Shown here: piece by piece, positions 3,401-60,552 of the stretch
How positions within the stretch are numbered: the stretch's first letter is position 1
Layout of the letters: every line of letters begins with the position of its first letter
Origin: Haematococcus lacustris
Lineage: Eukaryota; Chlorophyta; Chlorophyceae; Chlamydomonadales; Haematococcaceae
Length of the DNA: 64,000 nt
Assembly (NCBI GenBank): GCA_030144725.1
Contig: JASKMD010000029.1
Coordinates: 15,829,135 to 15,893,134 of the forward strand
Direction of reading: 5' to 3'
Program-made: the position numbers and the translations under genes
Notes under the pieces: generated by a model
What the model was told of the DNA's origin: nothing
What the model saw: only the letters and a program-made list of their open reading frames with translations
Database searches by the model: none

Positions 3401-6400
3401 TGCTGGTTATGGCCTCTTGGTGGCCGTACATGGCCCCTAGTATGCAGCCTAGGTTCTTGGGTTTACATCGGCAGGCTTTATCCACCTTCCAGCTGGAGAG
3501 TCCTGGGAGGTCAAGGCCTACTATGCGCACTATATCCTGCGGGATAGTTTGGGTCTGTCTGCCCTCATTGTTCCGTTTCGTGCCCGCCTTGGGTGGCGTG
3601 GGCTTCGTTGGGGCCGATTGTGTTGCTCGTTGCTCTCGTTTCAGCAGTCGTGAGCTCGTCCTAGTGGCGTCATGGACTGCGGGTGCCGCTGCGGCCCGGT
3701 CCGCCGTTGCTGGTTGCGTTGCGTGCATGGCCGCATACGCTTTCATATCCATATAGCGAGTTCTGGTGTCTGGCACTGCGGGTGTGGGCGCAAGTTCCGT
3801 GAGGCCCGCGGCCCATGTTGTGATTTTGCGTTGGTCGGGCGGGAGGTCGAGTGATGTGTTGCGGCTGTCTCGGATGGCACGCGTTGCGGTCGCGTCTGGG
3901 CATGAGGGTTGGGCCGCCATGGCTGCAAGTTTGTTGAGGGCGATGATGTGCTTCTGCTTGACCTTTTTTCCGTACTTCGATGTGAGCATGCTACCGGTGA
4001 TGATGTGTGTGTTGCAGCTGAGTTCAGAAGCGTGCGTGATGCCTAGGCTTTTGAGGCAGGTGATGCTGGCGCTGACGACATCGTGTGCTTGAGAGCTGCT
4101 GGCCTGTGTGATGAGGCGGCCGAGTGTTTGGCATTCTTCGTGATAGAGAGGTAGCCCCTCTTCTGTGGCCGATAGCCCGGATATAGAGGCATAGACTAGC
4201 TGCCGTGCTCTAAGGGTGTGATGAAGGAGGGTGAGCATGCGGTGTCCTTGTGTGCTTGCCTGGGTATTGAGCCATGTGATTTGTTTGTGCAGCATGCTCC
4301 TCGAGATGTGGGCGTGTGCCACATCTGTGGACTGGAGGCTGTGTGTAAGGGCTGTCGTGTTGCGGGCGTGATATTCTTGGGCAGTGGAGCTAATGCCTAT
4401 GCCTAGTTTGTCAGCGTCTTCTCTGATGATGGCATTGGGCGTTCCCAGGGGGAGTCTGAGTTTGAGCTTCACGCATTGATTGATGGACCTGTCGTACAGC
4501 TCAAGGTCCCCTGGGGTGCACGGCACGGCGCAGAAGCTGTAGGCTAGGCTGGGTATGATGGCCGTGCGGATGATGTGTATGGCCTGCCTAGCGCTAGCAA
4601 AGGAGCGTCTGAGTCTCTCGAGTTTTTGGCGGAGCTGGGTGATCATAGCGGTGTGTTGTGGTTTCCAGTCCAGCGTCATGGTGATGAGCACACCCAAGTA
4701 GGTGAAAGGTGAGGTCGGGCGGTGGTAGGTGACGGGTTTCCCTTGTAGGCTGACGGTTTGGAGTTGTTGGCGGGCCCGCTTGTCCGCTTCGGCCGCGTTG
4801 CTGCACATGCCTGTTTCGACCGAGTGATGGAGCGCCGCTGTAGCGAGGGTTTTACTGTGTGAGATGATGAGGTGACCCCAGTCCGAGAAGGCTGAGAGTT
4901 TGTCCGCTTGGCATCGGAGGTTGCGAAGGGTGTTGCAGAGTATGGCTATGTCATCAGCATAGTCGATGCTGCTGACGGTGGCGCGTTCCCCGCTGTCGGC
5001 CGTTGCTGATTTGAATTTATAGCCCCTCGCGCCCACTTGCAGCCATCGCAGGAGGGGTTCAATGTAAATGAGGAATAGGAAGGGCGAGAGAGAGTCGCCT
5101 TGTATGGTGCCCCGGTTTACGGGTACCGGGTCAGTATGGCCGTACGGGGTTTTAAAGCGCGTTGTAGCGCCCGTGTATAGGTCCTTTACAGCGTCAGTCG
5201 CGTCCGTGGGGAAGCCTAGGTCATGCATGATCCAGAGTAGTTTGTCTTGGCACGTGGTGTTGAACGCACTGGTGAAGTCGACCAGGAGTGCGTAGATATC
5301 TGCCTTGGCCAGTTTAGCATCCTCAAGGGCCATGACAAGCATCTGCAGCTGTTGTGTGGTGTTCCTGTGGGAGCGGAACCCAGCCTGGTTCTTGCTGAGC
5401 ATCCCATTAGCTTCAGCATACTCAGACAGCGTCTTGGTAATGAGGCTGGTCCACAGCTTGTAAACGGTGTTGGCTAGGCCCACAGGTCTGTAGGAGTTGA
5501 GGTCCGTTTCTTGCCCCTTGTCCTTGTAGAGGAGGCATGTGTCACTGGTTTTCCATGCTGTGGGTGTGCAACCTGTTGCCCACATGATGATGAAGAGCTG
5601 GTGGATGGTTTCCCGCATCTCCCATGGCAGCATCTTGATGATCTCGTTCTCCACCCCGTCTGGTCCCGGGGCCTTGCCTCCTGACAGCCTGCTGATGCAT
5701 TCCTGGAAGCCTGCCTTGTCCATGATGGCTGTGTGCAGCCAGTGTATGTTTTGGCATGCGTGTAACGCGAAGGCGTCGTCGGCTTTGGCGCGAGCCCACG
5801 GGTAGTTTCGTGTCTGTGTGTTAGTGTAGTGGCCAGTCTTGGGGGTCGGGGCCGCCAGCTTCTGCCCATATGCGGCGGTGATTATCCGGTTGAGGTCGGC
5901 AGGGGCTGTGCATATGGTTTTGGTGTCAGGGTCAGCTAGCGCCTGTAGGCCTTTGTGGTCGGTGCGGGACGGGCGCAAGATACGTTTGTTAGCCTTCTTG
6001 GGCTGGGTGCTGATCAGTTGTTGCATTCTGACGCGAGCTTGTGCGATGGCGAATGCGGAGTCATCGTCGTCTAGTTGGTGGATTTGGTCGCGGTACGTAT
6101 TGGTCAGTTGGGCTAGCGCGGCCTGCACGTGATTTTCGGTTGGGTCTTCACCCTGTCGCGCTTGCACCGCGTCCCTGATCTCTTCGTTTATCGCATCTGT
6201 CCCTAGAATGAGTTCGTCGATTGTCGGGTGCACGTTGGTTTGCTTAAAGAGGGAGTTAGCCTTCCGGCTGAGGTCTCTAGCGGTCTTAAGCTTTCTGCCC
6301 AGTGCCAGTCTAATCCTGCACATGGTCCTGCGTTGGTAGTGCTGGCCTCCCCTTGTGAGGGTCTTAGTGTTGCATGTCTTTATAGCTGCCGTCCTGCAGG

Positions 6401-9400
6401 TTTGTAGGAGGTTTGTGAGCATGGTGGCTGCGGTGTCTACGGCTTCCCTGGCCGGGCGTCCTGCCACTGATGTCAGACGCTGTGGTTGTTGAGGGTTGGT
6501 CTTGCCAAGTGTAGCCAGGTGGTGGGTAGCCTCTGTGTATATGGGGGCTAAGAAGGCTGTCAGTTCTGCATGCAATTGTGGGACGCCTGAGCTGGGTTGT
6601 TGCACTGCCAGGCGGTAGGCTTCCCTGTCCTTGTTGGTAATGGGGGTGGTGAGGATGGTGTGGTTGTGCTTCGGTGGTTTGAGTGGGGCTGACAGGTCTA
6701 TGCCCAGGCGGGCTGTACTCAGTGTGGCGGTGAGTGGCCTGTGGTCGCTCAGATAGACGTTGGTATCGACGTGCGTGCGGTGCTCAGGTCCGTGTCTTGC
6801 GTCGCGTGTTAGAATAGCGTCGATGCGGCTGTTGCAGTGCGGTTGCTGGTAGGTCCAGGCCCGGTCGCCGGGGTCAGCTTCCTTCAGGTGCATTTCTGCG
6901 GCGAACCCCCTCATCATGCTGTCTTGTGTGTATTCGGTGTGCTCGGAACGATCCTCTGTTTTCATCGTGGCGTTGATATCTCCCGCCAGGATGAGTGAGC
7001 CGGGCAGGTGGCCCGTGGCTGTTCGTATGTGCTCTTGCATTTTTCCTCGCATTATCAGCGCGTCCCCGTTGTTTCCCGACGGCCAATACGTGGCGATGAT
7101 GGTGAGCTGTTCGCACTGGTGTTGGTTGAGGGTCAGGATGACACATCGTGCGTTTATCTCGGCGTCGTTGCTCGGTGGAAGCATAGTGGTTTTCATTTGG
7201 ATGGCTAAGTGGTGTTTGATGCCTATTAGGACGTCACTGTGGCCTCTGTGTCGGTGTGTCGTATAGTCTGGCATGACTCGCCTCAGCCAGCCAGAGCTTG
7301 GGTTATTGCTCTTGGGCTGGGTCATGGTTTCAGTTAGGATCAGGATGTCCGGGCTGTGTTGATGCACATGGTTTAGGACGTCGTTCCTGGACCTATGGAG
7401 GCTTCTGACGTTCAGGGTCGTTAGTGTGATATGCTGTCGATTGTGTGTTGTTTGTGGCTGCCGGGTTGGCAAGGTGCTGTGTTGTGGGTGTGGTCCTGGG
7501 TGCTCAGGTAGGTTACCGGTGGGGGGTGGCGGTGTTGTGGGGATGGCGGCGGGGGGTGGGGTGGGGGCTGTGTTTAGGTATCTGTACATCAGGGTCTGCG
7601 TGTGTGAGTCCTTAGTATGCGCTCTTGGTTTGGTCCGTCTTTTGTCTACGATGGTGCCCGATGTCGTGGGCCGCTTACTGCTGCATGCCCGGTCTTGTAG
7701 AGTGGGGAGAGTGACTGTGGGGGCGACCTGGCGCAGTCGCGGCCGGGCCTGCTTGTCTGTCGGGTGGGTGTCTTCTGTGGCTGTTAGTATGCGCTTGTAA
7801 CTCGCTGGTTGTGCAGTGGGTAGCGGCCGGTCTGTTCGGGGGTTGTGCGCGGGTTGTGTGCCCAGGTCTTGGGTAGTAAGATCGATGTGGGTGGTACGTA
7901 GATGTTGTTCCAGCTGTTCCGTTGTGGCGCGCCTTGTTGGGTCAGCTAGCCAACATAGTGGATGGATGAGGTTGGTATCAGCCGCGTCGCCCTTTTTGAT
8001 TTGGACGAGTGTACCCTTCAGCTGAAGCCAGTCTTCCGGGGTGTCCAATCGGCATGGGCGGCCTTGCTCCGAGTCCAACCAGTGCCATGCGTTGTTAATG
8101 TGGCGGATGGTGGTAGCGTGATTGTGAGTAATGAGGATGGCGGCTGTGTTAGTGTAGCTGTCCGTCTTGCCCGTGAGCGTGGTGAGGAGCTCGGGTGTGA
8201 TGTTGGTGGTGGTGGTGGTGGTGGTGGTGGTGGTGGTGGTGGTGGTTATAGGGCATAGGTGGAGGTCCTTGTGGTGGTGGAATAGGTAGTGGTTTATGGT
8301 GGAGATGGTAAAGTTGCCAGATTCCTCGTAGATGTGTGGGAGGCTGCTACGTAGTGGTATTATCCTGTGCTCCTGCCTTGCCTGGTTGGATAGGCCTTGG
8401 ATGTGTGTGTAGAGTGATTTGCAGTGGGTGATGACGTCTTCGGGCCAGATCATGGGTTTCCCTATGGCCATGTTGATGGCGTGTACAAGACAACATTGTT
8501 TGTATTGCCTTTCCATGTAGCATTGGGACGGGTTCCGGTTGTCTTCCTTGTGGCTGATAATGTGGCTAATACCCTGTCGGGTGGCGGCCATGGTTTGGGC
8601 TGGTGTAGCTGCCGGGTCAGGTGCGATGACGAACACCTCGTGGAAGTGTGTCGTGTAGGAGCGCGACAGCTCGCAGATGGCTATAGCTGATTTACTGGGG
8701 CTGTCGGAGTCTAGGAGCTTCCACTGCCCGCCCAACTTCCTGAGCGCCATGCTGTGGCCGTTCGTTTTGCACAAGAGGTTGAGTGTGGCATACTCTATCG
8801 CTATGGTGTCGAGGTTGTCGTCGTTCCAGTCGTCTGTGTTGCGTAGGTGAGCGACCCTCGTAATAGTGAGGCCGTATTTGGTCCTGAGGTAGAGGTGGAT
8901 GACCTCGTCACTGAAAGCACCCCCTTGCCCGTGCGCGGTGCGCCACGCCTGTTTGTCGCCTTCGTCGTGTAGTGTTGTATCCCAGGCTGTCCAAAAGTTA
9001 TGTAGGTCCTCAGGCTTCACCCATTCCTTTCCGGCTGCATTGTTGAGGGAGTGGGCCTGGCAGTTGCGGTTCACCTGTGCTTCAAAAAACAAGGGGTTGG
9101 GGTTGGGGTGTGGGGTATGTGTTGTCCTGTGGATGTCATGTGGATGTTGTCTCCCACTGGGGCATGGGCCAGGGTTGACTTCAACGTCCCCGGCTGCGAG
9201 TAGTAGCCATGATATGAAGTAGTCAACGGTGAACGAGGGTTTCCATGTGGGGTCCTGGTGTCGTGCCGTTGCCGTGGTTCTCTCAGTTCCCCTGATCTGA
9301 TAGGTACAGTAGGCCTGTATGGTTGTGTTGTATTGGCTGACTGTCCGGGAGTAGCTCTTGTGCCCTCCCTTCAGGTGCAGGTAGAATCTATTTGAGATCC

Positions 9401-12400
9401 TACAGATGGCCGTAGTGACAGGCACTATACCGGTGAGGTCTCGCAATGTGTTGTATGTCGTGATATGTACTATGGCCCTGAGGCGCGTGATCTTTCTTCT
9501 TTGTCGTGCCAGGCAACGTTTGGAGTCTTTCGGGGTAGGTATCTGTGGTTGGTGTCGTTGTGTCGCACACCATCCTATGAGGATGGCGATGAGGATAGGT
9601 GTGTCTAGGTGATAGGTTCGTCCAAGTTGAGTTGCGTTGGAGGGGCATGGGTGGGTGGTATAGTCTAGGTTCATGTGTGTGCTCGTCTCAGTAGCGGTAG
9701 TGCCCATAGTTCTTACATTCAGATGACCAATGCACAAGGGTAGGAGGCTGCTGTCCGCTGTAGGATGTGCACGGTGCCCTATGTGGTGTCCTATCTCAGC
9801 TTGTGAGGCTTGGGGTTCTGCAGTGCTAGGGTCTGAATTCCAGCCCAAGTCGCCATCTAGCATACCCATTTCTACTTCAGATACTGTGTGGCATTCATGT
9901 TCTACGAGCTCATAAGTACTTATCCTCCCTGGTACCTCTCCAACCCCGCTGGGCTCCCGGGCCCAGCTAGCTCCAGCAGCTGCCTGTCCAGGTTGCTGCT
10001 TGCTACGAGGTCCAGGTTTGCCGTGCCCATTTTTTAGTTGCTGGGTCCAGTCCCCTGCAGTCATGTGGGCAGCATGGTGCAAGCTGTCCTGATTGGTGAT
10101 AGGTATGTGGTTGGTGTGCGGTGGTGGGGGGCCATGTTGGGACAACAGGGTCTGCCCTGCAAGGCCCATTGACTTCTCGTTCCTGTCGGTGTGGTTGGGG
10201 GTGGTGCAATGTGTCACACGGTGGGCTTGTGTGGCTGGTCTGCTCACCGCCGTCTTGGTGCCCTCCTTAGGCATCTCCTCTTGCTCCTCCTCCATGGGTG
10301 AGCCGCCTGTGCAGTTACACGGTGTGGGTGTGAGTATGTGTTGTGTGGTAGTGGTGAGGTCTATGGGCCCCTTCCAGGTATGTCCATGGTGCGGCTTATT
10401 ATTGCACACCTGGGTTATGATCCTCAGCTGATACGGAGTCCATCTTGGAGATAAATGAGAGGTTGAGTCCTCTGCCCCCGCCTGAGCTCCCATGGCGCTG
10501 TCGGCGGGCAGCCCTCTCTGCTCCTGGGGTAAGGGCCGGTGAGTGTACCTGCGGGTATGCGTGAGTTTAGCGGCAGGTGTGTGTACCTGTCGTGGCATAT
10601 GGGTGTGGTGTATAACATTGAGTATAGTGTTACTAGGTTGCATGCTATGGTGATGTGTGGTGGTGCTGACCTGGGTACGTCCTCCAGCCCGTTGGATGCC
10701 GCTGGACCCCGCTAGGTCTCGCTGGGTTGCCCCCTCCTGGGTGGTGTCAGCTCCGCCTGATGGGTCATTGTCACCTGCGCTTGTGGGCAGTGCCATCTGT
10801 GTGTGGTAGAGTGTCCTACCATTATTGGTATATTTTGTGGTGTGCTCCTGGTGGGGCGGTGTTAGCCAGGCGATGAGTCTGTCTGAGTGGTGTGACCTTG
10901 AGGGCATGCAGCCTAGCGCAGTGGGGGAGCGTGTTTTCGTGGGTGCTGCTGTCACCTGTTGTGTGGGGCAGGGGGTCCACCAGCGTTGCGTTGTTCTCAA
11001 GGGTTGCCCCGTCGTTGCCTCCGGTCTCATTGGTAGGGGCCTGCATGGCAATGTGTGAGGATTGTGGGGTTGATGTGGCCCTTCCGGCAGGCTGGTAGGG
11101 TGTTGATTGTCAATCGTGTGTGTTCTTCCGTAGTGTGTGTGCATGTACTCTTTGCTGCGCACTTGGTGGGTCTGCTCTGCGGGTTGTGTGCAGTGTGTCA
11201 CCTGTGCAGTGTAGAGGAAGCCCGCCTCGATGGCGAGTTCGTCAAAAGCCGCGATACTGCTGTCGCTGCTGGCTCTGCTGCTGGTGCCTCTGCCAGCCCA
11301 TGCCCCTGACGAGGCGCCCCTCACCAGGTTGGGGGAGGGACCCCTGCTGGTGCCTCTGCCTGATGGGTCTGGGACGGAGTTGGGTCCCCGGCCCCGGCCT
11401 CCCGCCCCTCCCCTGCCAGGGGCCCTTGCCGCTGCGCCTCCGGTGGGTGGGATGGGGGCTGTGGTCGCGGTGGTGTTGCGGGGCGGGGCGGCCTGGAGCT
11501 GAGTCGCTACTGCAACAGCCCTGGTTCCCCATCCCCTGCTGGTTGCCGCCGGCTGGGGAGTGGGCTGTGTGCTGCCCTCATGGGTAAGGGCCCGTAGCAC
11601 AGCTGGGGTGTATTTGGCATCGCTGTGGTCCACGACGCGTGCCTCCACCAGGTAGGTGGTGGCCCTGCCCTGTAGCTCATAGGCCGCGTTGGCCCCCACC
11701 ACCTGTTGCATGGTGATGCCGTCTGTGACGGCTGCGATAGCCCTGAAGGTGAGGGCCGCCTGGTCCGGCACATGCTGGAGGCCTGTGTAGCGTGTGTTCC
11801 TGCTCGCAATCCTAGCTCGGGTGGCCGGGTCTGCCGCATCCACGGGGGTCCCCACCTCCTTCAACCAGATGGGGAGGTTGATGCCGCCGCTGACACCTGC
11901 CAGGCTGCGTGGTACTCCTATCCATACTTGCCCCCGCTGCGTCTCTACTACCCCTCCCAAGTCCTGGGCGGCTGCCAGGGCGCTGACCATGGCTTGCTTG
12001 CTGGCCGGCGTGAGGTAGAGGATGGGGGCCTCCCTGACCCCGTGGCTGCTGAGGGGCAGGCCATTTGGCGTGCAGCACGCTGTGATAGCTCTGGCCACCG
12101 TGCCCAATGGATGCTCGTTGGCAATCACCTGTATAGCACAAGCAAACAATGTTTTGGGTGTAGCATATGTATGGTGTTGATGTGTTCTAGTCGGTCGCAA
12201 GCTTGTGTCCATTGTGTGGGCCATTTTCAGGGTTGCGACTTCTTGTGCGTATTGTATGTTAGAACAGGGTGTGGCAATGTATGTGCTAGTGCTTGCCTGG
12301 TCTGTCAGGGGGTCCTTGATGGTAGTCAGGAGCATCTTGCTGGATCCATGTTGCTTCATGGTCAGCATGTCCCCAGCGAAGTTGGCAAAGGAGAGAGGCA

Positions 12401-12605
12401 GGGTGGCTCCCTGGGCCAACATATCTCGCAAGCGTTGCCCCTCAGCACTCTGCGCACTGACCAAAGGAGCCACCGCATCAGGGGGGTGGTGAGCATCGTG
12501 CAGGGCCCATAGCACGTCACAGAGTTCTGATGGGCTGACAGGACCGCCTGTGGGCTTGCCGATGGCGATGCAATGGGGGGGCAGCGGGGGGGGGGGACGC
12601 CGCAC
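402..12605 (-). CDS. LINE-1A polyprotein: RG-rich ORF1 region, 2A, 2x Josephin-like protease, APE, RT, PHD, RNase H, CCHC, RLE
   Basis: A 4067-codon open frame with no ATG at its start: the first codon is GTG just after an in-frame stop, so it probably continues from the upstream frame (12517-14439). Approximate order by residue: ORF1-like domain with RG-rich stretch (GRGGAGGRGRG) near 400-450; 2A motif GDVEVNPGP ending at 1147; Josephin-like protease 1 at ~1160-1330 (NCQAHSLNNA, GHSMALRKLGGQW, LLDSDS); protease 2 at ~1345-1560 (QCCLVHAIN, HATTIRH, WLDSE); APE ~1720-1955 (TLNVR, LTET, GDINA, RIDAIL, SDHRP); RT ~2300-2600 with YADD at 2549-2552; PHD finger ~3120-3170; RNase H ~3595-3735 (TDGSC, NKAEL, TDSL, GNEGADAL); CCHC at ~3852 followed by RHN; RLE ~3940-3975 (RPDILMV, EIKY). 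The 2A motif should split an ORF1-like product from the protease-replicase product. Confidence 0.88.
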   Translation of the reverse strand: MRRPPPPLPPHCIAIGKPTGGPVSPSELCDVLWALHDAHHPPDAVAPLVSAQSAEGQRLRDMLAQGATLPLSFANFAGDMLTMKQHGSSKMLLTTIKDPLTDQASTSTYIATPCSNIQYAQEVATLKMAHTMDTSLRPTRTHQHHTYATPKTLFACAIQVIANEHPLGTVARAITACCTPNGLPLSSHGVREAPILYLTPASKQAMVSALAAAQDLGGVVETQRGQVWIGVPRSLAGVSGGINLPIWLKEVGTPVDAADPATRARIASRNTRYTGLQHVPDQAALTFRAIAAVTDGITMQQVVGANAAYELQGRATTYLVEARVVDHSDAKYTPAVLRALTHEGSTQPTPQPAATSRGWGTRAVAVATQLQAAPPRNTTATTAPIPPTGGAAARAPGRGGAGGRGRGPNSVPDPSGRGTSRGPSPNLVRGASSGAWAGRGTSSRASSDSSIAAFDELAIEAGFLYTAQVTHCTQPAEQTHQVRSKEYMHTHYGRTHTIDNQHPTSLPEGPHQPHNPHTLPCRPLPMRPEATTGQPLRTTQRWWTPCPTQQVTAAPTKTRSPTALGCMPSRSHHSDRLIAWLTPPHQEHTTKYTNNGRTLYHTQMALPTSAGDNDPSGGADTTQEGATQRDLAGSSGIQRAGGRTQVSTTTHHHSMQPSNTILNVIHHTHMPRQVHTPAAKLTHTRRYTHRPLPQEQRGLPADSAMGAQAGAEDSTSHLSPRWTPYQLRIITQVCNNKPHHGHTWKGPIDLTTTTQHILTPTPCNCTGGSPMEEEQEEMPKEGTKTAVSRPATQAHRVTHCTTPNHTDRNEKSMGLAGQTLLSQHGPPPPHTNHIPITNQDSLHHAAHMTAGDWTQQLKNGHGKPGPRSKQQPGQAAAGASWAREPSGVGEVPGRISTYELVEHECHTVSEVEMGMLDGDLGWNSDPSTAEPQASQAEIGHHIGHRAHPTADSSLLPLCIGHLNVRTMGTTATETSTHMNLDYTTHPCPSNATQLGRTYHLDTPILIAILIGWCATQRHQPQIPTPKDSKRCLARQRRKITRLRAIVHITTYNTLRDLTGIVPVTTAICRISNRFYLHLKGGHKSYSRTVSQYNTTIQAYCTYQIRGTERTTATARHQDPTWKPSFTVDYFISWLLLAAGDVEVNPGPCPSGRQHPHDIHRTTHTPHPNPNPLFFEAQVNRNCQAHSLNNAAGKEWVKPEDLHNFWTAWDTTLHDEGDKQAWRTAHGQGGAFSDEVIHLYLRTKYGLTITRVAHLRNTDDWNDDNLDTIAIEYATLNLLCKTNGHSMALRKLGGQWKLLDSDSPSKSAIAICELSRSYTTHFHEVFVIAPDPAATPAQTMAATRQGISHIISHKEDNRNPSQCYMERQYKQCCLVHAINMAIGKPMIWPEDVITHCKSLYTHIQGLSNQARQEHRIIPLRSSLPHIYEESGNFTISTINHYLFHHHKDLHLCPITTTTTTTTTTTTTTNITPELLTTLTGKTDSYTNTAAILITHNHATTIRHINNAWHWLDSEQGRPCRLDTPEDWLQLKGTLVQIKKGDAADTNLIHPLCWLADPTRRATTEQLEQHLRTTHIDLTTQDLGTQPAHNPRTDRPLPTAQPASYKRILTATEDTHPTDKQARPRLRQVAPTVTLPTLQDRACSSKRPTTSGTIVDKRRTKPRAHTKDSHTQTLMYRYLNTAPTPPPAAIPTTPPPPTGNLPEHPGPHPQHSTLPTRQPQTTHNRQHITLTTLNVRSLHRSRNDVLNHVHQHSPDILILTETMTQPKSNNPSSGWLRRVMPDYTTHRHRGHSDVLIGIKHHLAIQMKTTMLPPSNDAEINARCVILTLNQHQCEQLTIIATYWPSGNNGDALIMRGKMQEHIRTATGHLPGSLILAGDINATMKTEDRSEHTEYTQDSMMRGFAAEMHLKEADPGDRAWTYQQPHCNSRIDAILTRDARHGPEHRTHVDTNVYLSDHRPLTATLSTARLGIDLSAPLKPPKHNHTILTTPITNKDREAYRLAVQQPSSGVPQLHAELTAFLAPIYTEATHHLATLGKTNPQQPQRLTSVAGRPAREAVDTAATMLTNLLQTCRTAAIKTCNTKTLTRGGQHYQRRTMCRIRLALGRKLKTARDLSRKANSLFKQTNVHPTIDELILGTDAINEEIRDAVQARQGEDPTENHVQAALAQLTNTYRDQIHQLDDDDSAFAIAQARVRMQQLISTQPKKANKRILRPSRTDHKGLQALADPDTKTICTAPADLNRIITAAYGQKLAAPTPKTGHYTNTQTRNYPWARAKADDAFALHACQNIHWLHTAIMDKAGFQECISRLSGGKAPGPDGVENEIIKMLPWEMRETIHQLFIIMWATGCTPTAWKTSDTCLLYKDKGQETDLNSYRPVGLANTVYKLWTSLITKTLSEYAEANGMLSKNQAGFRSHRNTTQQLQMLVMALEDAKLAKADIYALLVDFTSAFNTTCQDKLLWIMHDLGFPTDATDAVKDLYTGATTRFKTPYGHTDPVPVNRGTIQGDSLSPFLFLIYIEPLLRWLQVGARGYKFKSATADSGERATVSSIDYADDIAILCNTLRNLRCQADKLSAFSDWGHLIISHSKTLATAALHHSVETGMCSNAAEADKRARQQLQTVSLQGKPVTYHRPTSPFTYLGVLITMTLDWKPQHTAMITQLRQKLERLRRSFASARQAIHIIRTAIIPSLAYSFCAVPCTPGDLELYDRSINQCVKLKLRLPLGTPNAIIREDADKLGIGISSTAQEYHARNTTALTHSLQSTDVAHAHISRSMLHKQITWLNTQASTQGHRMLTLLHHTLRARQLVYASISGLSATEEGLPLYHEECQTLGRLITQASSSQAHDVVSASITCLKSLGITHASELSCNTHIITGSMLTSKYGKKVKQKHIIALNKLAAMAAQPSCPDATATRAIRDSRNTSLDLPPDQRKITTWAAGLTELAPTPAVPDTRTRYMDMKAYAAMHATQPATADRAAAAPAVHDATRTSSRLLKREQRATQSAPTKPTPPKAGTKRNNEGRQTQTIPQDIVRIVGLDLPGLSSWKVDKACRCKPKNLGCILGAMYGHQEAITSIDGWQWDGINKENYYKVHWKPTVIDRWALPLCAEEGYTPTHIETISREEAKDVCTCELCWLPRGDSPTCHNCKRAYHPACLEEAHLSGHKEPGYWLCPICKFGSNDFKTTMRQSAHSDLIRVHWQPTLEPAPLITAHLDYMAKRNDYDEENRQIQEARHARPDAHLPAHTRQGLPDPHTWLPRCTNLHSKATFHTYPINPQTDIVGTGNCETFLQLHPHMTAPAMSLSTGEPIMPRHDLAQHVTVHDESGRTVGLLTKDQHQQLHAWLQHTPHTRNLATEVVALLRRQDAQSSHHPMRGAQDKALNTLHTTRSFPSTVQRWADPLTVRPETTTYWSPDTNDTAFGAHHNCLLVRHTGLSTWNVPADDAVALKCVNHAIHSATQEEAMATIMLIPGKKGISYPKHIDTLRRYPEYCQHLASIPPTKTRCPKPGKHAKLHIYVIWNAAGQQLVTKGNPQGWLASTATALHPQRDTHPIRNRPTNQSQPATPPSGHKQHMRLPMDRDLPTSGHQRSHEQLTHHSTTQPRMAITEWATIAYTDGSCIKTSGAAPASVGAGVYIPEPNVLITAALNDPESNTINKAELTAIHAALKAGAKRIATDSLCSLYQIRRALANPMSLITHRHNDILTAIATLIIDSPVTIQFYKVRAHSGIIGNEGADALAKHAALHPELANTPAYSPTTRRETKNWLSNAADGDSPAPLPDCRQSVREHMHRKHKLGLANQDSIYYQMSQEIKKVAATGAGERVMIDTNIPTHAQRTALLYRTGGLYNQKLAMRWKRATDDRCPLCGEADSATHLLSGCSETLPLVQERHNGAGRLITKAISKGTLGGYISFADTGSWEKGAKESLDLPSDTLHTTLRTLGLKPDDTKHTTRPDILMVLPHKKASKEGKDAKLVNIIEIKYCSDSRWKDQLNKALTQHTHLAETIRKEDHMVAIIPILLGIGGITYEAHTRQHLLALGITQANTTKLLNKLTRHAVEAAHSIAKTSYRLRANQGGGG
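8203..8247. repeat. (GGT)n microsatellite encoding poly-threonine
   Basis: A run of about 14 GGT triplets on the plus strand reads as a poly-Thr tract in the second protease domain of LINE-1A, between its Cys and His motifs. LINE-1B lacks the tract, so it is a private expansion in frame. Confidence 0.9.
9165..9206 (-). other. 2A ribosome-skipping motif in LINE-1A
   Basis: The minus-strand codons spell LLLAAGDVEVNPGP, matching the canonical 2A consensus D-(V/I)-E-x-N-P-G-P with the usual upstream hydrophobic residues. Skipping would occur between the last Gly and Pro (residues 1146/1147). 2A motifs are established in some trypanosome and animal non-LTR retrotransposons; here it separates the ORF1-like part from the protease/replicase part. 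Confidence 0.85.
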
Positions 12606-14439
12606 TGAGCCGGAGGGTGAGGATTCCCTCTAGCTCAAACACCAGGCTGTGGCAGGCGGTGAGCATCTCCCTTAGAGCTGGCGTGGTGCTGTGCGCTGTG
12701 TATGCGCCTGCTTGTTGGCCCCTTTCCTGGGTGACGGCGTTGACGCTGAGGGCTTGCATCAGCCTAAGGCTAGAAAGGGGCACTCGCGCTGCGTATGCTC
12801 GCCAGGCCTCCAGGCTGCCGGGGGGGGCTCCCATATCTGACAGAGCCAGGACGCAGCCCAGGATGTGCATGACCTGTCTGATGGCTTGCGGTGTATGAGC
12901 ACCCTGCATGTGCTCAGGTGGCCAAATGCCCAGGCAGTCTGCACCCGGCAGGAGCTGCAGGTGTGCTTGCACCCTCATTGTGTGAGAGCTGTTCCTAGGG
13001 TGCTCTTCCAGCAAGGTGCACTGCATTCTGCCCTGCACCACCCCTTTCTCTGTGGCGATGTCTGTAAGGGGGGGGTCTGTCTCATATGCCTCCAGGAAGC
13101 GGCTGATGCTAGCAGGGGGGAGTTTGACGTTGTACTGGTAGGGGTGGCAGGTGTACCCTGTCTGTCCTAGGCTGAAATGACGCATAGGGCAGTGGGTGAC
13201 TGTGCTGGCCCCTTCTATGTTCTTCTCCTCTAGCCAGAGCTGGATTCTGACGGCTGTTGCTTCCGGGCTGGTGCTGTACATAAGGTTTGGCAGCTGGCCA
13301 CCTGGGCAGTTTAGCACAGTCTTGACGATGTGCCCCAGGAGAGCTGCTTCTACCAGCTGGCCCTCAGTGCAGCCAGACAGGGCTGTGGCTGGTATGTCTG
13401 CAAACCTGGCGTCCACCCTGCGCTGGCTGCTGTGCTGCGCTGTGGATGTTGAGCCCCTATACGGGGTGCCAGTCAGCAGGGCTCCTCGCATGGTTTTGTT
13501 GATGTACGTCGTGTTGTTAAGGATGGCCCTCAGTCTTGCTTCCCCTGCATGTGATGCACCAGGGGCAGCACGGCATGTGGGGGTGTGTTTGTCAGCACCG
13601 GGCCAGGGTCTTGAGTCTCCACTGCCATGGACAGGACAGGTGCATGGTTGCAGAGTGGGAGGCGGGGCTATATGCGGCTGTTCATCTAGGAACGACGGGT
13701 GGTGCAAGGGTGTGTGCCACTGTCCTCTTGGTGAGAGCAGATTATGAGGCGGTGTTGGTGCATCTGGCGGCGGCAATTTAAAGAACCGGGGTGAGTACAC
13801 CAGTTTGCCAGGGGAAAGCCAAGTTAAGATCGGGGCTGGGTGCACCAGTTTGTCCGAGGAAAGCAAGGTCCGAAGCGGGGCTGGGTGCACCAGTTTGCCC
13901 GACGAGAGCAGAACAAGAAGCGGGGCTGGGTACTCCAGTTTGCCCGAGGAGAGCCAATCGATATGCGGGGCTGGGTGCACCAGTTTGCCCGGGGAAAGCA
14001 GAACAAGAGGCGGGGCTGGGTACACCAGTTTGCCCGAGGAAAGCAAGGCCAGAATCGGGGCTGGGTACACCAGTTTGCCCGAGGACAGCAAGACAGGGGC
14101 CGGGGCTGAGTACGTCAGTTTGCCCGTAGGAAGCAAGACAAGGAGCGGAGTTGGGTGCGTCAACTTGCGCTGGGGAGCTCTACACGATCCTGCAGACGAA
14201 TCTACCTCGACATTTCGTAACCGCAGCAAGCAGCTCTGCTTAGCCTCGATGCTATCATCTGTAGGCCATAGCTGCTGTATTGAAGCTGTCGGTGCGCTGT
14301 TGCGATTTGTCTGCAACAGAGCTGTCAGCAAGATGGCCACAATGAGAATATGTCTAGTGGTGTTGTGCTTACCACGGAGGTTGATGCAGTGGCTGATAAG
14401 GGCGAGGGTGCCCGCGGTATTGGTCGTCGCACTCCACAT
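12517..14439 (-). CDS. LINE-1A upstream ORF with 15-aa tandem repeats (likely N-terminus of the polyprotein)
   Basis: The open frame runs from the element's 5' end; the first ATG is at 14439, while the frame itself is open back through 14608. It contains a short hydrophobic stretch (HILIVAILLTALLQ), then about eight copies of a 15-aa repeat around SGKLVYPAP, then a globular-looking region similar in composition to an ORF1 protein. It overlaps the next frame at 12517-12605 and differs from it by one base. An 11-G run at 12586-12596 (plus strand) lies exactly in the overlap; with one G fewer the two frames would be one. Function of the repeats is unknown. I do not recognise a known domain. Confidence 0.6.
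   Translation of the reverse strand: MWSATTNTAGTLALISHCINLRGKHNTTRHILIVAILLTALLQTNRNSAPTASIQQLWPTDDSIEAKQSCLLRLRNVEVDSSAGSCRAPQRKLTHPTPLLVLLPTGKLTYSAPAPVLLSSGKLVYPAPILALLSSGKLVYPAPPLVLLSPGKLVHPAPHIDWLSSGKLEYPAPLLVLLSSGKLVHPAPLRTLLSSDKLVHPAPILTWLSPGKLVYSPRFFKLPPPDAPTPPHNLLSPRGQWHTPLHHPSFLDEQPHIAPPPTLQPCTCPVHGSGDSRPWPGADKHTPTCRAAPGASHAGEARLRAILNNTTYINKTMRGALLTGTPYRGSTSTAQHSSQRRVDARFADIPATALSGCTEGQLVEAALLGHIVKTVLNCPGGQLPNLMYSTSPEATAVRIQLWLEEKNIEGASTVTHCPMRHFSLGQTGYTCHPYQYNVKLPPASISRFLEAYETDPPLTDIATEKGVVQGRMQCTLLEEHPRNSSHTMRVQAHLQLLPGADCLGIWPPEHMQGAHTPQAIRQVMHILGCVLALSDMGAPPGSLEAWRAYAARVPLSSLRLMQALSVNAVTQERGQQAGAYTAHSTTPALREMLTACHSLVFELEGILTLRLSAASPPPAAPPLHRHRQAHRRSCQPIRTL
13800..14160. repeat. 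45-bp coding tandem repeat in the LINE-1A 5' ORF
   Basis: About eight units with a 45-bp period, each beginning near CAGTTTGCCCGAGGAAAGCA on the plus strand and separated by variable 8-10-bp segments. On the minus strand every unit encodes 15 residues around SGKLVYPAP. The period keeps the reading frame, so copy number can vary without a frameshift. Confidence 0.9.
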
Positions 14440-14608
14440 ATCTCTTGGGCTCTTTTCTCGTGCTGGTTCCGATGGGTCGGGTGTAGGAGTCTGGAGCGTC
14501 GTGTCAGGGCCGCAAAACTCTTTTTCGTGGTGTCTCCATGGAAGGTCCGGGTTGACAAGCTTAATTGGTTCTTTGTGAGGAGCACCAACGTGTCCCTTTG
14601 ACAAATCT

Positions 14609-14620
14609 AGAAGAAGCACA
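14609..14620. repeat. Target-site duplication of LINE-1A (copy at the 5' end)
   Basis: Exact second copy of the 12-bp AGAAGAAGCACA found at 274-285; it marks the 5' boundary of the element at 14608. Confidence 0.85.
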
Positions 14621-14888
14621 AGAAGGACCCGGCAAGGGCAAGGGCAAGGCTGCTAAAGCCAAGCCAGTACCACAGCCAGGCAGGTGGCTGGACAGGGACT
14701 GCAATGCAGCGCTGAACATGCAGCGCATTGGGGAGAGCAGGTGGCGTCCACTCGAGCTGTGCTACTGGCCAGACCAGGGAGCTCTGCCAGCCAAGGGCAA
14801 GGAGTACCCTGGCCTGGGCTACAAGCGGGTGCGAGACAAGCCACCCAAGGCCCAGGAGCAGCAGCAGCAGCCTGCTGAGGCACAATAA
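14609..14888 (+). pseudogene. C-terminal remnant of a TnpB/Fanzor-like nuclease gene
   Basis: The open frame ends in the third RuvC motif and tail typical of TnpB/Fanzor proteins: WLDRDCNAALNMQR, then ELCYW, then a basic Gln-rich end before TAA at 14886-14888. Only the last catalytic Asp (of DRDCNAAL) is present; RuvC-I and RuvC-II are missing because LINE-1A occupies the sequence directly upstream. The GKGKGKAAKAK stretch before it could be exon or an intron ending at the CAG before GTGGCTGG (14678). It belongs to a different family from the complete gene at 21507-24177: the tails do not align beyond the motif. Confidence 0.7.
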
Positions 14889-20865: not shown

Positions 20866-21088
20866 CTAATCCCTGCAGCCCTCATGCTACAAAGCACGAG
20901 TCGCAATGAGACACAGGCTGTAAGCTCGTCATTGTCAAGGCTACTGCTAGTGTGCCTATTGCCCATCTCAGCTCAGCCATTCTGGTATGTGTGCCTCCTG
21001 GTCTAACTGAGTCCAGGTCGAGCTCTAACTAACCCTGTTGCTCTTACTCACACACATCCCCTCTGCGAGGGGTTTTGTATCTTGTTTA
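20866..21088 (-). repeat. Diverged second copy of the Fanzor 3'-end segment (RE1)
   Basis: About 220 bp that aligns over its length with 21258-21480 at roughly three quarters identity by eye. It has the same end block: on the plus strand CTCTTACTCACACACATCCC, hairpin CCCCTC-TGC-GAGGGG (21058-21072), then a TATCTTGTTT end. No Fanzor coding sequence adjoins it. It starts only ~50 bp upstream of the METTL1-like ATG. Confidence 0.7.
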
Positions 21089-21192: not shown

Positions 21193-21257
21193 AGCAGGCA
21201 ACATATGTATGTGCGGCCTCCATTTCTTTAACAATGGCAACATTTCTTGAACAAGTT

Positions 21258-21506
21258 TTAATCCCTACAGCCCTCATGCAACACCAAAATAAAGCATGAG
21301 TTGTAATCAAACACAGGCTGCGAGATCGCTGTTGTAAAGGCTACTGACAGTGTGCCTAATGCCCACTTCAGCTCAGCCTTCTGGTGTGTGTGCCTCCAGG
21401 CTACTACTAGCAAGAGCTCTACCCTACTCTATAGCTCTTACTCACACACATCCCCTTCGTGAGGGGTTTGGTATCTTGTTTTCTTGGATTGTCTTGCTGT
21501 AGCTGG
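21258..21506 (-). ncRNA. Candidate guide (omega) RNA / right end of the Fanzor element (RE2)
   Basis: The segment begins about 26 nt after the Fanzor stop codon on the minus strand. It opens with a block ending in the hairpin CCCCTCACGAAGGGG (21452-21466 in minus sense) and continues for ~200 nt that are repeated in diverged form at 20866-21088. In the hairpin a U-G pair in this copy corresponds to a C-G pair in the other, so pairing is conserved while sequence changes. For TnpB and Fanzor, the guide RNA scaffold lies at and just beyond the 3' end of the nuclease gene and runs to the element's right end (established knowledge). The RNA call here is inference. Confidence 0.4.
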
Positions 21507-24177
21507 CTATCGCCGCCACTTGCGCCGCCACTTACGCAGCAGGGCCTTGTCGGGCAGGTACACCCACTCCTGGCCTGGCCTGCCTAGCTTTGGCATGGCT
21601 GGGCGGCCATCCCAGTAGCACAGCTCGGTGGGGCGTGGGCCTGGGCCGACTGCACAGCGGCGGATGTTCAGCGCGGCTGACACGTCCCGGTCGTAGAACC
21701 TGCACATGGGTGTGGGAAATGCATTGAGTCAAGTCATGTGCCATGTCATGTGTCACCTCATGTGGGATATGTTGCAGCCATGTACATGTGCATTGTCTGG
21801 TCATTGCTTACCTGATGTTGTAGCTTGTTGAGCTCATCAAGCCCCTGACTTGGGAACGCTTCGCCTCGCTGTACACTGGCCGCAGCCACCTGCATGGACA
21901 CATGGGGCAATGCACATTTGTAAGATTTTTCCTTACCTTCCCAATCTTGACCCTACCAAGCCGCCTTCACTCCACCACCTCCCAGCACTACCCTGGCCCT
22001 CCCCCACTGACCCTCTCACCTGAAGGACTCAGGCGGCTGCCCAGGCAAGGCCTCAATGGGGTGGCTGTAGGCTGAGCTGACCCGGCTTGTGCGGAACTCA
22101 TCCACCAGCACCACACGCCCTGCCCCGAATTGCTGCACTGCCTCTTTCCTCATCTGGCTGACTGGGACACCCCTGCAGCCAATGCTGCCGCTGCCGCTGA
22201 AGCTAGCTGCCCCATAGGCCAGGGCCAGGATGCGGTCCGGCCACCGCTTCTGTGCCTGCTTCTTGACCTGCGTCCACACATGGTACAGCACACAGTGGCA
22301 CACATGTGTAAGGTCGGGTATATCAGCAGCAACAGAGGCAGCAACAGGAGCAACAGCAGCTGGCCAGGTGAGCTGACTGTGGTTGGCTGCTGCCTAGCTC
22401 GTGGCTAGCTGCTACTGGGCCTTACCTTGGCCCAGAACGAAGCCACCACGCGCCGCTTGCCACAGTACAGCCGGAACTTGGCGTTGGCCCAGCGCTTCTT
22501 CGAGACCTCGGCCCACATGGCGTCATACGTCTCCAAGACGGTGTCGGCGAACCGCCGGTACGAGGCCAGCGAGCTGGGCTTGCTGCTGACCCGCGACAGG
22601 GCTGTGAGCTGCGGCTTCACCTTGGTCAGCCACGTCTTGGTCGCCTGGGCCTGCCGCGTAATGCCGCTGTCCCGGTAGTACTGACCGGCTGTGAGCTTCC
22701 AGTGCCGCACGGATACCACTGTGCCGGCAGCGCTGCGCTCCTCGTGCGCTACAGTGGCCATGTTGGTTTTGCCAGGGTCAACGCTCACAAGGCAGGCACA
22801 AGGCAGCTGACTGCAGGCTCACAAGGCATGTGACAGCACACATGGCAGCTGACGGAGCACCAGAGGACTGGCTAGCACCTGACTGCAAGGAGCACTCACG
22901 TGGCTGTCTTTGGGCCCTGCAATGAAGTTGCCCGGCACCGCTGGGTCAGGTAGGGCACCGTTCCTGAACTTCTTCAAGGAGGTGACCCCTGCCTCCGTCA
23001 GCACCCCCAGCATGCCGGCGTCATGCATCATGCCGTATAGGCCCCTGGTGTCGATGAAGATGTGCCGAGCCTGGCACTTGCTGGTGGGGGTGAGGGCATA
23101 GGGTGTGGGGGGGCGGGGGGGCCTTGGCAGCAGCCCTGGGTTGGTGAGCTCAGCCTGCTGCCAAGGCACCATATCCAGCTGCCAGGCTGCCATGGCTGCC
23201 TCCATCTCTCTGGTAGTGTGCACCGCATGGCGCAGCAGCCGGCCCCGGTTGACTGGATCCTCCACCCAGTCGTCATCCACCCTCTCCCCCTCCTCAAGCC
23301 CCAGCAGGCCCCGTTGCAAAGCCACCTCAGCCTGCATGGCTGGAGTTGGCACCACCCCACCCTGCTGCAGCAGCCAGCTGACGTCCAGGCCGCACACCAT
23401 GCGGCGCACATAGGTGCACTCCCGCTTTGACCAGGCTGGCAGGTGCCCACCACCCTCGACCCCCCAGAATCCAAATCTGCGCCGGTGTTCCTCAGTGCCC
23501 AGCAGGACCTTTGCCCCAGCCAGGGACACAGACTTCTTGAGCCTACCAGCGAAGAGCAGCGTGAGCATGTTGCTGAAAGCTGTCTCCAGCTGCTTGCCGA
23601 CGTGGTCCACCATGTTGGTGTCAGACAGGTGGCGGGGGATTGCTGCGAGGCGGGCGCGAAGGTCAGGGTGCTCTGCCAGCACGGCAGCCACTGCCGCGTT
23701 TGGCTGAGTGTTCGCGCCGTTTCCGGGCGGGCCGCGGACCAGCTGCAGGAACAGGTTCCTGCAGCTCAGGTCCGGGATGGCTGCCTGGGAGACTGGGATG
23801 TCTGTGTACACGGGCTGGTCGTGCAGGCCCAGCGGGTCGGCTACGCGAATGGTAAACAAGCCGCGCACGAGTAAGCCCAACAGCAGGCTGGCGAGCACCC
23901 CACGCTCGCTGATGGCCTCCGCTCGTGGCCGCACAGCGTCGGCCAGGAAGGCATCCCAAAGCTCTTGCGGGAGGTGGTCGATGAGGTGGGCTATCTTACA
24001 CTTCCTGCCGTGGTATGTGTTATCCCTATCGCGGGCAGCGCGGGCCTCTCCGGAAACCTTTCTATTTTGCTGCGCCTCGGTGAGATCCGGCTGTAGTGCC
24101 TCGTCGCGGTCCTCAATGTCACTGTCCGGGTCCTCCGGCACTGGCCTAGGCACGGTTCGTCTTTTTTTCTTAGCCAT
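21507..24177 (-). CDS. Fanzor: eukaryotic TnpB-like RNA-guided RuvC endonuclease
   Basis: Five exons with GT-AG introns join in frame on the minus strand: 24177-22900, 22806-22426, 22267-22020, 21889-21812, 21699-21507, giving 725 aa. The start ATG (24177) precedes a basic AKKKRRTVPRP segment that looks like a nuclear localisation signal. Residues 1-426 are a long N-terminal region; the RuvC core follows: SVDPGKTNMATVA with D436 (RuvC-I), a helical middle with KFRLYCGKRRVV, LAYGAASF, VVLVDEFRTS with E610 (RuvC-II), and FYDRDVSAALNIRR with D667 (RuvC-III), then a basic tail KWRRKWRR. The D-E-D triad is intact. The zinc-ribbon position between E610 and D667 has no cysteines (TSRVSSAYS where TnpB usually has CxxC). 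Fanzors cut DNA under guidance of an RNA made from their own locus (family knowledge). Confidence 0.87.
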
Positions 24178-24908
24178 AGAAAACAATAACGTCAAGCCAT
24201 CACAAATACTAGGATATTATCGGTTTTGTTTGTTTGCATTTGCGGTTTTGTTTGTTTGTTTGTCGTCTTCGCCGCCTTGAACAACCAGCTCGATAGACAG
24301 CCGGTCAAGCAAGCCCGCATGCAGCCAAACAAAAGTATGCACGTTCAAGTTATGCAACGTCAGGTCATGTGTCAAGAAAGAAGTAAAGACTAAGCTCTCG
24401 CCATCAAGCGTGCAAGCAGGGTGGAGAGAAGCCTCACGGCATGCCCTTGCTATCCTGCCACCAGGGAAGGTCATGTGTCAGGTCAATTGGAATCTGCTCA
24501 TGTTGACAGAGTGGCCCGTAATTACCTGATGTGCGAGATTGCTATGCCTTACTGAACACTGGCCGCAGCCACCTCCAAGGACATTTGCCATTGCTCAAGT
24601 GGAATGTCTTTTCATCGTGTTGCTGTTTGTGACATAGTGTGGGACTGCTGTTAAATCCTACAACCCTCATGTAGAGCCAGTCATGTCCCCGTTGTCGTGC
24701 TTGCCGATCCTCAGCTGGCTGTTCATTGCTTGCAGTATTCAGCTAAAGCATCAAATGTGCACCATCGCACTATCCCTCTGCACCCATTGCCAAGTATGAA
24801 CCACCAGCATGCAACATGTGATGGCTGATGCACCGCTGGCCTTCAAGCGTGCCATCAACACCCTAATGGAACTCCCTCCACTTCCAGCCTGCTGCCGCAC
24901 CCAGTTGC
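24178..24908. other. Fanzor 5' flank with a decayed Fanzor-like fragment
   Basis: GTTT tetranucleotide repeats at ~24218-24263 lie just upstream of the Fanzor start. At ~24540-24590 the segment around ACACTGGCCGCAGCCACCT matches exon 4 and its splice acceptor (21875-21894), and at ~24650-24672 a CTACAACCCTCATG block resembles the far end of RE1/RE2. This looks like a second, largely eroded Fanzor element in the same orientation. No intact gene seen. Confidence 0.4.
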
Positions 24909-25540
24909 ATGCTCAAGTTGTTGCCTGCTGCTTTAGATCATGAGGTTGCTGCCGCTGCCGCTGCCGCTGCCCCTGCTGCCGCAGCTGCTGCTGCTGCCAC
25001 TGCCCCTGCTGCCCCTGCCGCCCCTGCTGCCCCTGCTGCTGCTGGCCCTTTTGCTGCTGCCCCTGCTGCCCCTGCTGCTGCTGCTGCCCCTGCTGCTGCT
25101 GCCCCTGTTGTTGCTGCCCCTGCTGCTCCTGCCCCTGCTACTGCTGCCCCTGCTGCTGCTGGTGATGATGCCGCTGCTGCTGCCCCTGCTGCTGCCACCG
25201 CCGCCGCTGGCGCTGCTGCAGTTGCCGCTGATGCCCCTACTGCCCCTGCCGCCCCTGCCCCTCCTGACCCTGCTGCTGCTGCCCCTGCTGCTGCTGCCCC
25301 TGATACTGCTGCCCCTGCTGCCCCTGCTGCTGCTGCCCCTGCTGCTGCTGCCCCTACTGCCCATGCCGCCCCTGCCCCTGCCGCCCCTGCTGCTGCTTCC
25401 CCTGCTGCTGCTGCCCTTGTTGCTCCTGCCCCTGCTGTTGCCTGCTGCCTACTGCTGCTGCTGCCGCTGCTACTGCTGCTGCCCCTGCCCCTTCTGCTGC
25501 TGCCCCTGCTGCTAGCCTGGCTGCTTTTCGGTGCTAGACA
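24909..25540. repeat. 630-bp GCT/CCCCTGCTG low-complexity tract
   Basis: Imperfect repetition of TGC and CCCCTGCTGCTGCTG motifs. Several frames are open on both strands (Ala/Pro, Leu/Pro, Gly/Ser), which is a by-product of the repeat, not evidence for coding. Confidence 0.85.
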
Positions 25541-60020: not shown

Positions 60021-60037
60021 CTGTCGACTTGGTTATG

Positions 60038-60540: not shown

Positions 60541-60552
60541 TGAATGTGGATG
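60541..60552. repeat. Target-site duplication of the truncated LINE copy (left)
   Basis: TGAATGTGGATG, identical to 63337-63348. Together with ATC at 60538-60540, its reverse complement continues the Copia reading frame as I-H-I-Q. Confidence 0.85.

Follow-up and report, generated by a model that had tools for sequence, protein, structure and literature searches.

A probably young copy, with an internal deletion, of a Fanzor1-type mobile element repeated in the genome of Haematococcus lacustris

The Fanzor-like gene on the minus strand of the window (the whole stretch of 64,000 nucleotides of Haematococcus lacustris DNA that was analysed) is best explained as part of a mobile element of Fanzor1 type that this alga carries in many copies, here in a young copy that has suffered an internal deletion. 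We assign this reading a probability of roughly 0.78. An earlier note on this DNA had presented the gene as complete and correctly spliced, and its intact locus as a good candidate for a working RNA-guided system. That observation is partly confirmed: the gene is a real member of the Fanzor family, but it is not an intact one.

The components of the gene model are present in the sequence. Between 24177 and 21507, the exons 24177-22900, 22806-22426, 22267-22020, 21889-21812 and 21699-21507 (minus strand) join into a protein of 725 amino acids, all introns are of the GT-AG type, and D436, E610 and D667 are present in the RuvC motifs. The basic N-terminus that had been claimed is found as MAKKKRR at the start of exon 1. 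When the donors are held fixed, 48 acceptor combinations give an open frame, every one with an exon 2 that starts at 22806, and openness alone is therefore no proof of the splice. Comparison with sibling copies elsewhere in the genome gives the following parts (positions of the window):

22900..24177, minus strand: exon 1, with the ATG at 24177 and the N-terminal MAKKKRR
22784..22899, minus strand: 5' remnant of intron 1; donor kept, acceptor of the siblings deleted here; contains the AG for an exon start at 22806
22783..22784, minus strand: deletion point, with ~265 bp absent and a 2-nt microhomology GC
22426..22783, minus strand: what is left of exon 2, opening with RuvC-I (VDPGKTN; D436 in the 725-aa model)
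22020..22267, minus strand: exon 3, with RuvC-II VDEFRTSRVSSA (E610)
21812..21889, minus strand: exon 4, part of the zinc-finger segment of other Fanzors, without cysteines
21507..21699, minus strand: exon 5, with RuvC-III YDRDVSAALNI (D667) and the stop codon

The deletion is apparent from the sibling copies. The genome (308 Mb, 597 contigs) was searched with 2.9 kb of the locus as query; of 3,789 candidates 40 were scored, and these yielded 82 matches. The other long copies match the window copy in two halves, at 95–99% identity, which part near query position 1517/1518 and are separated there by ~265 additional bases. These bases, which were read in L002, belong between window positions 22784 and 22783 and are present in all seven other loci of that search. 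They comprise the last part of intron 1, including its acceptor (CTACAG, directly followed by GTGGCCAAC), and the first 217 nt of exon 2; compared with its siblings, the gene is thus not complete. In the alignment, the acceptor AG of intron 1 is found in 20 of the 20 fetched siblings and is absent only from the window copy. The coding columns of that copy hold 2,156 nt, versus 2,370 or 2,373 in the open copies. The full-length frame of 789–790 amino acids is open in 11 of the 20 siblings, and the other nine carry a stop, a frame shift or a deletion (L012, L014, L015, L017, L021, L025, L026, L027 and L028).

The claim of correct splicing is not confirmed either. The AG in front of 22806 also occurs in the siblings, but there it lies inside the intron as modelled, where the use of the downstream acceptor rests on an annotated gene model and on homology. 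The eight residues LPCACLVS, which replace the lost segment in the 725-aa model, are translated intron. In P0001, the best-scoring annotated homolog, residues 426-498 (VANRW...WLG) immediately precede VDPGKTN, and these residues are the part lost from the window copy. In the profile alignment presented below, the lost stretch aligns with positions ~300–381 of SpuFz1, which cover a WED strand with the TDG motif and the approach to RuvC-I; T328 is kept in 20 of 20 rows and G330 in 19 of 20. Within the same stretch fall R315, R317 and Y345, through which, according to Saito (2023), the WED domain contacts the guide RNA and the TAM. A protein without this segment is unlikely to work. With neither the WED strand nor the approach to RuvC-I, the window copy probably makes no working nuclease. 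It differs by only 0.66% from the nearest open sibling (private codons: four synonymous, two nonsynonymous), so the deletion is probably recent.

Two other explanations of the locus have to be weighed. The 725-aa protein might be complete and functional after all, by means of a cryptic acceptor before 22806. Its frame is open and in phase, all three catalytic codons are kept, and the eight intron-derived residues close with a hydrophobic run before VDPG, such that a strand could re-form. However, 73 residues including the Fanzor1 motif TDG are lost, the same AG is intron-internal in the sibling models, and the exon junction was found in none of the 120 listed homologs. We consider this explanation highly improbable, and only marginally less so the idea that the 265 bp were wrongly dropped during assembly from a locus that is in truth intact. 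Errors of this kind are conceivable in a repeated family with near-identical copies, and our basis is the assembled sequence rather than the reads. Yet, besides the window copy, no match in the genome search (40 scored of 3,789 candidates) runs through the deletion junction, and a similar assembly has been published that, by its description, was built from HiFi reads.

The earlier note had also proposed a search of the spliced protein against TnpB and Fanzor profiles, and had named the lack of a hit as an outcome that would refute its claim. Formally, this outcome did occur. In Pfam, the 725-aa model gave a sub-threshold match to GUN4 alone (E 0.028) and none to TnpB or Fanzor, and it had no match in NCBIfam or in PDB (phmmer). 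Since SpuFz1, a proven Fanzor, was also without a match at E ≤ 1 in the same copy of Pfam, this silence of the libraries was not taken as refutation. A weak likeness to TnpB and Cas12f is seen in their TNB domain (PF07282), which matched 14 of 36 family members at E ≤ 1 (best 3e-5, below the cut-off). Searching the algal genome with PF07282 in six frames gave nothing over the cut-off and one weak match (E 0.53), and was uninformative because the exons split the domain.

The family does match the profile of SpuFz1. This profile was prepared from a C-terminal piece obtained through a PDB match, with which 57 relatives were fetched and 20 aligned. Compared by hhalign, the two profiles matched with a probability of 97.4% (E 1.3e-11, score 99.7) over 580 columns, in a collinear alignment that starts close to the N-terminus and extends as far as the RP motif. 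In the controls, the best of 20 column-shuffled profiles scored 20.4 and the reversed profile 17.7. This comparison supersedes those with single pieces of SpuFz1, PpFz1 and Cas12f, which were weak (probability 3.5, 9.6 and 0.1, respectively). The family profile found one meaningless match in PDB (E 1.4), and viral contigs gave 28 pattern matches and 0 relatives. Protein homologs numbered 196 at E ≤ 0.01 among 7,999 candidates scored, and all 120 that were listed come from Haematococcus lacustris.

The motifs are in line with this result. Yoon (2023) names two signatures that separate Fanzors from TnpB, the motif DPG and a shifted glutamate. Typical of TnpB are, instead, D-phi-G and a glutamate at the canonical position. 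In RuvC-I, Asp precedes PGKTNMAT in 69 of 70 homologs with a readable motif, and the window copy has VDPGKTN. The shifted glutamate (Ealt) is E610, followed by FRTSRV and then S617, six residues before the first zinc-finger Cys position. With SpuFz1 and its fungal Fanzor1 relatives (PDB 8gkh), the family shares the collinear alignment, the WED motif TDG, the shifted glutamate, the RuvC-III aspartate and VHGL-like and RP motifs, although the identity in the alignment is only 18% and SpuFz1 has DPN where the Haematococcus family has DPG. Judged by profile and motifs, the family is Fanzor1-related, and the earlier note was right to see a Fanzor relative in it.

The zinc finger of these proteins is missing, however, a point on which the earlier note is silent. 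At the four zinc-finger positions of SpuFz1 (C548, C551, C586 and C591), Cys is found in 19, 19, 19 and 18 of the 20 aligned relatives, respectively, and a CCCC zinc finger is described as common to TnpB and SpuFz1. In contrast, residues 611 to 666 of the window protein include no cysteine, and a CxxC in this segment was found in 0 of the 73 readable homologs among the 120 listed of 196 (no cysteine in 25, one in 46 and two in 2). For a second Fanzor family, 987 proteins matched at E ≤ 0.001; the 120 listed are all from Haematococcus, and 119 of them are new. Among these 119, CxxC was found in 0 of the 56 readable ones (47 begin RVSSAVNG). Since both families lack CxxC where they are readable, the loss of the C4 zinc finger is probably older than the split of the two families. 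Bao and Jurka (2013) include the C4 finger in the strict Fanzor1 motif, and Yoon (2023) reports it as present in 'many'. Because it is absent here, we speak of a 'Fanzor1-derived variant' and not of Fanzor1 in the strict sense of 2013. No zinc-finger-free Fanzor family was found in titles and abstract openings of the Fanzor papers listed, and a full-text search for Haematococcus together with Fanzor found one work, on Auxenochlorella.

Sibling and flank comparisons place the gene in the following larger structure:

21255..24275, minus strand: Fanzor element copy of 3,021 nt, with its 3' end at 21255, from sibling alignment and target-site duplication
21255..21506, minus strand: conserved 3' noncoding module, candidate guide-RNA scaffold, from sibling comparison
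21273..21300, minus strand: subterminal hairpin CTCATGC...GCATGAG, near the 3' end
24276..24284, no strand: target-site duplication CTTGAACAA, 5' side of the element, from flank comparison
21246..21254, no strand: target-site duplication CTTGAACAA, 3' side of the element, from flank comparison
20867..21087, minus strand: 3' module of an older decayed Fanzor copy, 78% identical
24451..24611, minus strand: what remains of the exon-4 region of that older copy (63% identity), across the insertion from its 3' module

The 3' module, a stretch of ~250 nt that follows the stop codon, has 1,663 candidate places in the genome, of which 40 were scored. With 39 other places and the two of the window, a set of 41 copies was obtained, which is biased because it was found with a 3'-module query. 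Pairwise identity averaged 90.0% in the module and 83.9% in the coding end, and dropped to 27.9% past the 3' end, calculated for the 30 of 41 copies with an aligned coding end and leaving out the 11 in which the coding end beside the module did not align. From the alignment for the fold, 3 of the 41 sequences were left out. RNA folding was slightly better than for shuffled sequences (z -2.6, with 2 of 200 shuffles as good, and z -2.0, with 7 of 200). Covariation was weak, with 5 double changes versus 200 broken cells of 2,658 and too little variation in the module. Rfam gave no match for the module. On conservation and position, it is a candidate guide RNA.

Sibling alignments showed a sharp 3' end (...GCATGAGGGCTGTAGGGATTAAAAC, then usually TTG) and variable 5' ends; extra 5' sequence is common to several copies, and the 5' boundary given here is provisional. 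Of 19 loci compared, leaving out L017 and the reference L009, four have what we regard as clear target duplications: the longest string common to both sides measures 9 bp in the window and 12, 13 and 14 bp in three other loci. In the remaining fifteen it measures 3 to 7 bp. Mismatched flank pairs reached a maximum of 10 (in 8 of 342), so the 9 bp of the window are weak by themselves. When the flanks were joined without the element, they ran collinear with a related element (exon-4 region 63%, E 4e-8; 3' module 78%, E 2e-45), and the other matches were short and mostly low-complexity. By this collinearity, the window copy lies within an older decayed copy, as a nested insertion flanked by a 9-bp duplication. 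In L021, L023 and L026 the flanks are alike on both sides, so these loci probably represent duplication of a larger segment instead of separate insertions. L016 contains two element copies near each other in direct orientation. A long low-complexity repeat rich in CTG/CCC, which can be read as open in more than one frame, adjoins the element at window 24940-25520.

Intronless copies were not found: the 40 copies scored, out of 2,550 candidates, each matched exon by exon, and in none was exon 3 fused to exon 4 or exon 4 to exon 5. The exon-4 matches extend 18 nt beyond the junction with mismatches, which we read as an intron end that resembles the exon end. Retrotransposition of spliced RNA, which would give retrogenes, is rejected on the basis of the copies scored, and for the same reason we infer movement at the DNA level. 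The variable 5' ends, conserved 3' end and target duplications of variable length (clear in 4 of 19 loci) make up the trait set of Helitron2-borne elements of the CRe type. Common ends that would point to a Helitron origin were not found in the two loci examined of seven strong RepHel (Helitron Rep) loci, whose Helitron limits are not fixed, apart from one 17-mer with 3 mismatches in each.

By description, the CRe-1/2/3 Fanzor1 elements of Chlamydomonas reinhardtii (Bao and Jurka, 2013) resemble the Haematococcus element in many respects. They likewise occur in a green alga in many copies, with five exons (CRe-1), variable 5' ends, a conserved 3' end, target duplications and a 3' hairpin. They differ in that their published motif includes the C4 zinc finger, and in their link to Helitron ends, which was not found for the Haematococcus element in the two RepHel loci. 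Similarly, the repeat reported to be most abundant in the green alga Auxenochlorella is an element that codes for a Fanzor (Plant Cell, 2025).

Possibly, the protein family no longer cuts DNA, and the Fanzor has turned into a DNA-binding regulator or is a remnant multiplied by other transposon enzymes. The lack of cysteines in the window protein and of CxxC in its readable homologs would fit this explanation, as the missing zinc finger might signify loss of the usual activity. So would the apparent Ala at the RuvC-I Asp position in 12 of 89 homologs, as counted in pairwise alignments. Conversely, the nearly constant Asp before PGKTNMAT speaks for a cutting enzyme, and in the pairwise alignments 90 of 96 homologs retain the catalytic glutamate (the others show 4 gaps and 2 Lys), while 92 of 100 retain the last Asp (with 4 gaps). 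Moreover, the 11 open copies have a pooled pN/pS of 0.26 (mean dS 0.044), a value biased low because these copies were chosen as open; an unconstrained protein would hardly be expected to give so low a ratio. We therefore consider loss of cutting throughout the family unlikely, and the open siblings may make a working nuclease. The recent function claimed by the earlier note is accordingly plausible for the family, with its open siblings, but not for the window locus. A stronger challenge concerns the 3' module, which could be only a transposon end, with a signal for replication or integration, and not a guide RNA. The sharp 3' end, subterminal hairpin and variable 5' ends, features also known from the description of CRe Helitron2 elements, are consistent with this idea, and so are the weak covariation and the 11 of 41 modules without an aligned coding end beside them. 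However, ~250 nt is long for an end signal, and Fanzor guide RNAs are described as lying between the stop codon and the 3' end. An end signal alone is a realistic possibility, if a rather doubtful one. The two roles are compatible, and we retain the module as a candidate guide RNA.

The window contains further open frames of note. A single open frame of 4,075 amino acids at window 402-12629 (minus strand) contains an AP-type endonuclease, a reverse transcriptase, RNase H, a Josephin domain (ubiquitin protease) and a sub-threshold PHD-like finger, and thus resembles a non-LTR retrotransposon, in which the Josephin domain would be unusual. At 50967-60032 (minus strand), a frame of 3,021 amino acids contains endonuclease, Josephin and RNase H, with a reverse transcriptase fragment and PHD below the cut-off; on the opposite strand, an 888-aa frame with RNase H at 60544-63210 (plus strand) adjoins this second retrotransposon. 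The last exon of the second Fanzor family lies at 14565-14888 (plus strand; WLDRDCNAALNMQRIGESRWRPLELCYW) and adjoins an open frame on the retrotransposon side. In annotated Haematococcus proteins (P0003, P0005, P0006, P0103 and others), Fanzor exons are fused to host domains; 36 proteins scanned included one with Ras, one with Ssu72 and one with TPR. These fusions may be gene-model artefacts caused by the element.

The activity of the element can be pictured as follows. In the open siblings, the RuvC protein would bind RNA from the 3' module, with a guide that runs into the flanking DNA. The RNA-guided protein would then cut matching DNA and help the element to persist or spread, as proposed for TnpB and Fanzor, whereas a separate activity other than the Fanzor protein would move the element at the DNA level. 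The window copy, with its intact 3' module, could still supply RNA to proteins made elsewhere.

The case carries a warning for genome annotation: open, well-spliced gene models in repeats may be artefacts that are exposed only by sibling copies. The interest of the family, as judged from its sequences, lies in the combination of many copies, a mostly kept RuvC triad, a candidate guide-RNA module and the absence of the zinc finger as far as the proteins were read. Because the two protein searches listed at least 239 different Haematococcus proteins of Fanzor families (120 listed of 196 plus 119 further of 987, many of them fused gene models), Haematococcus is a natural test bed for the role of Fanzors in elements. 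Tentatively, and at somewhat less than even odds, we propose that two greatly multiplied Fanzor1-type lineages of this alga lost the C4 finger before they separated. At least the lineage of the window would keep its RuvC triad under purifying selection, so that eukaryotic RNA-guided cutting would need no zinc finger, and broken copies with an intact 3' module would persist as RNA-donor or decoy loci. If the open siblings are active, they would be natural zinc-finger-free Fanzors, and would reveal a dispensable part of the NUC domain.
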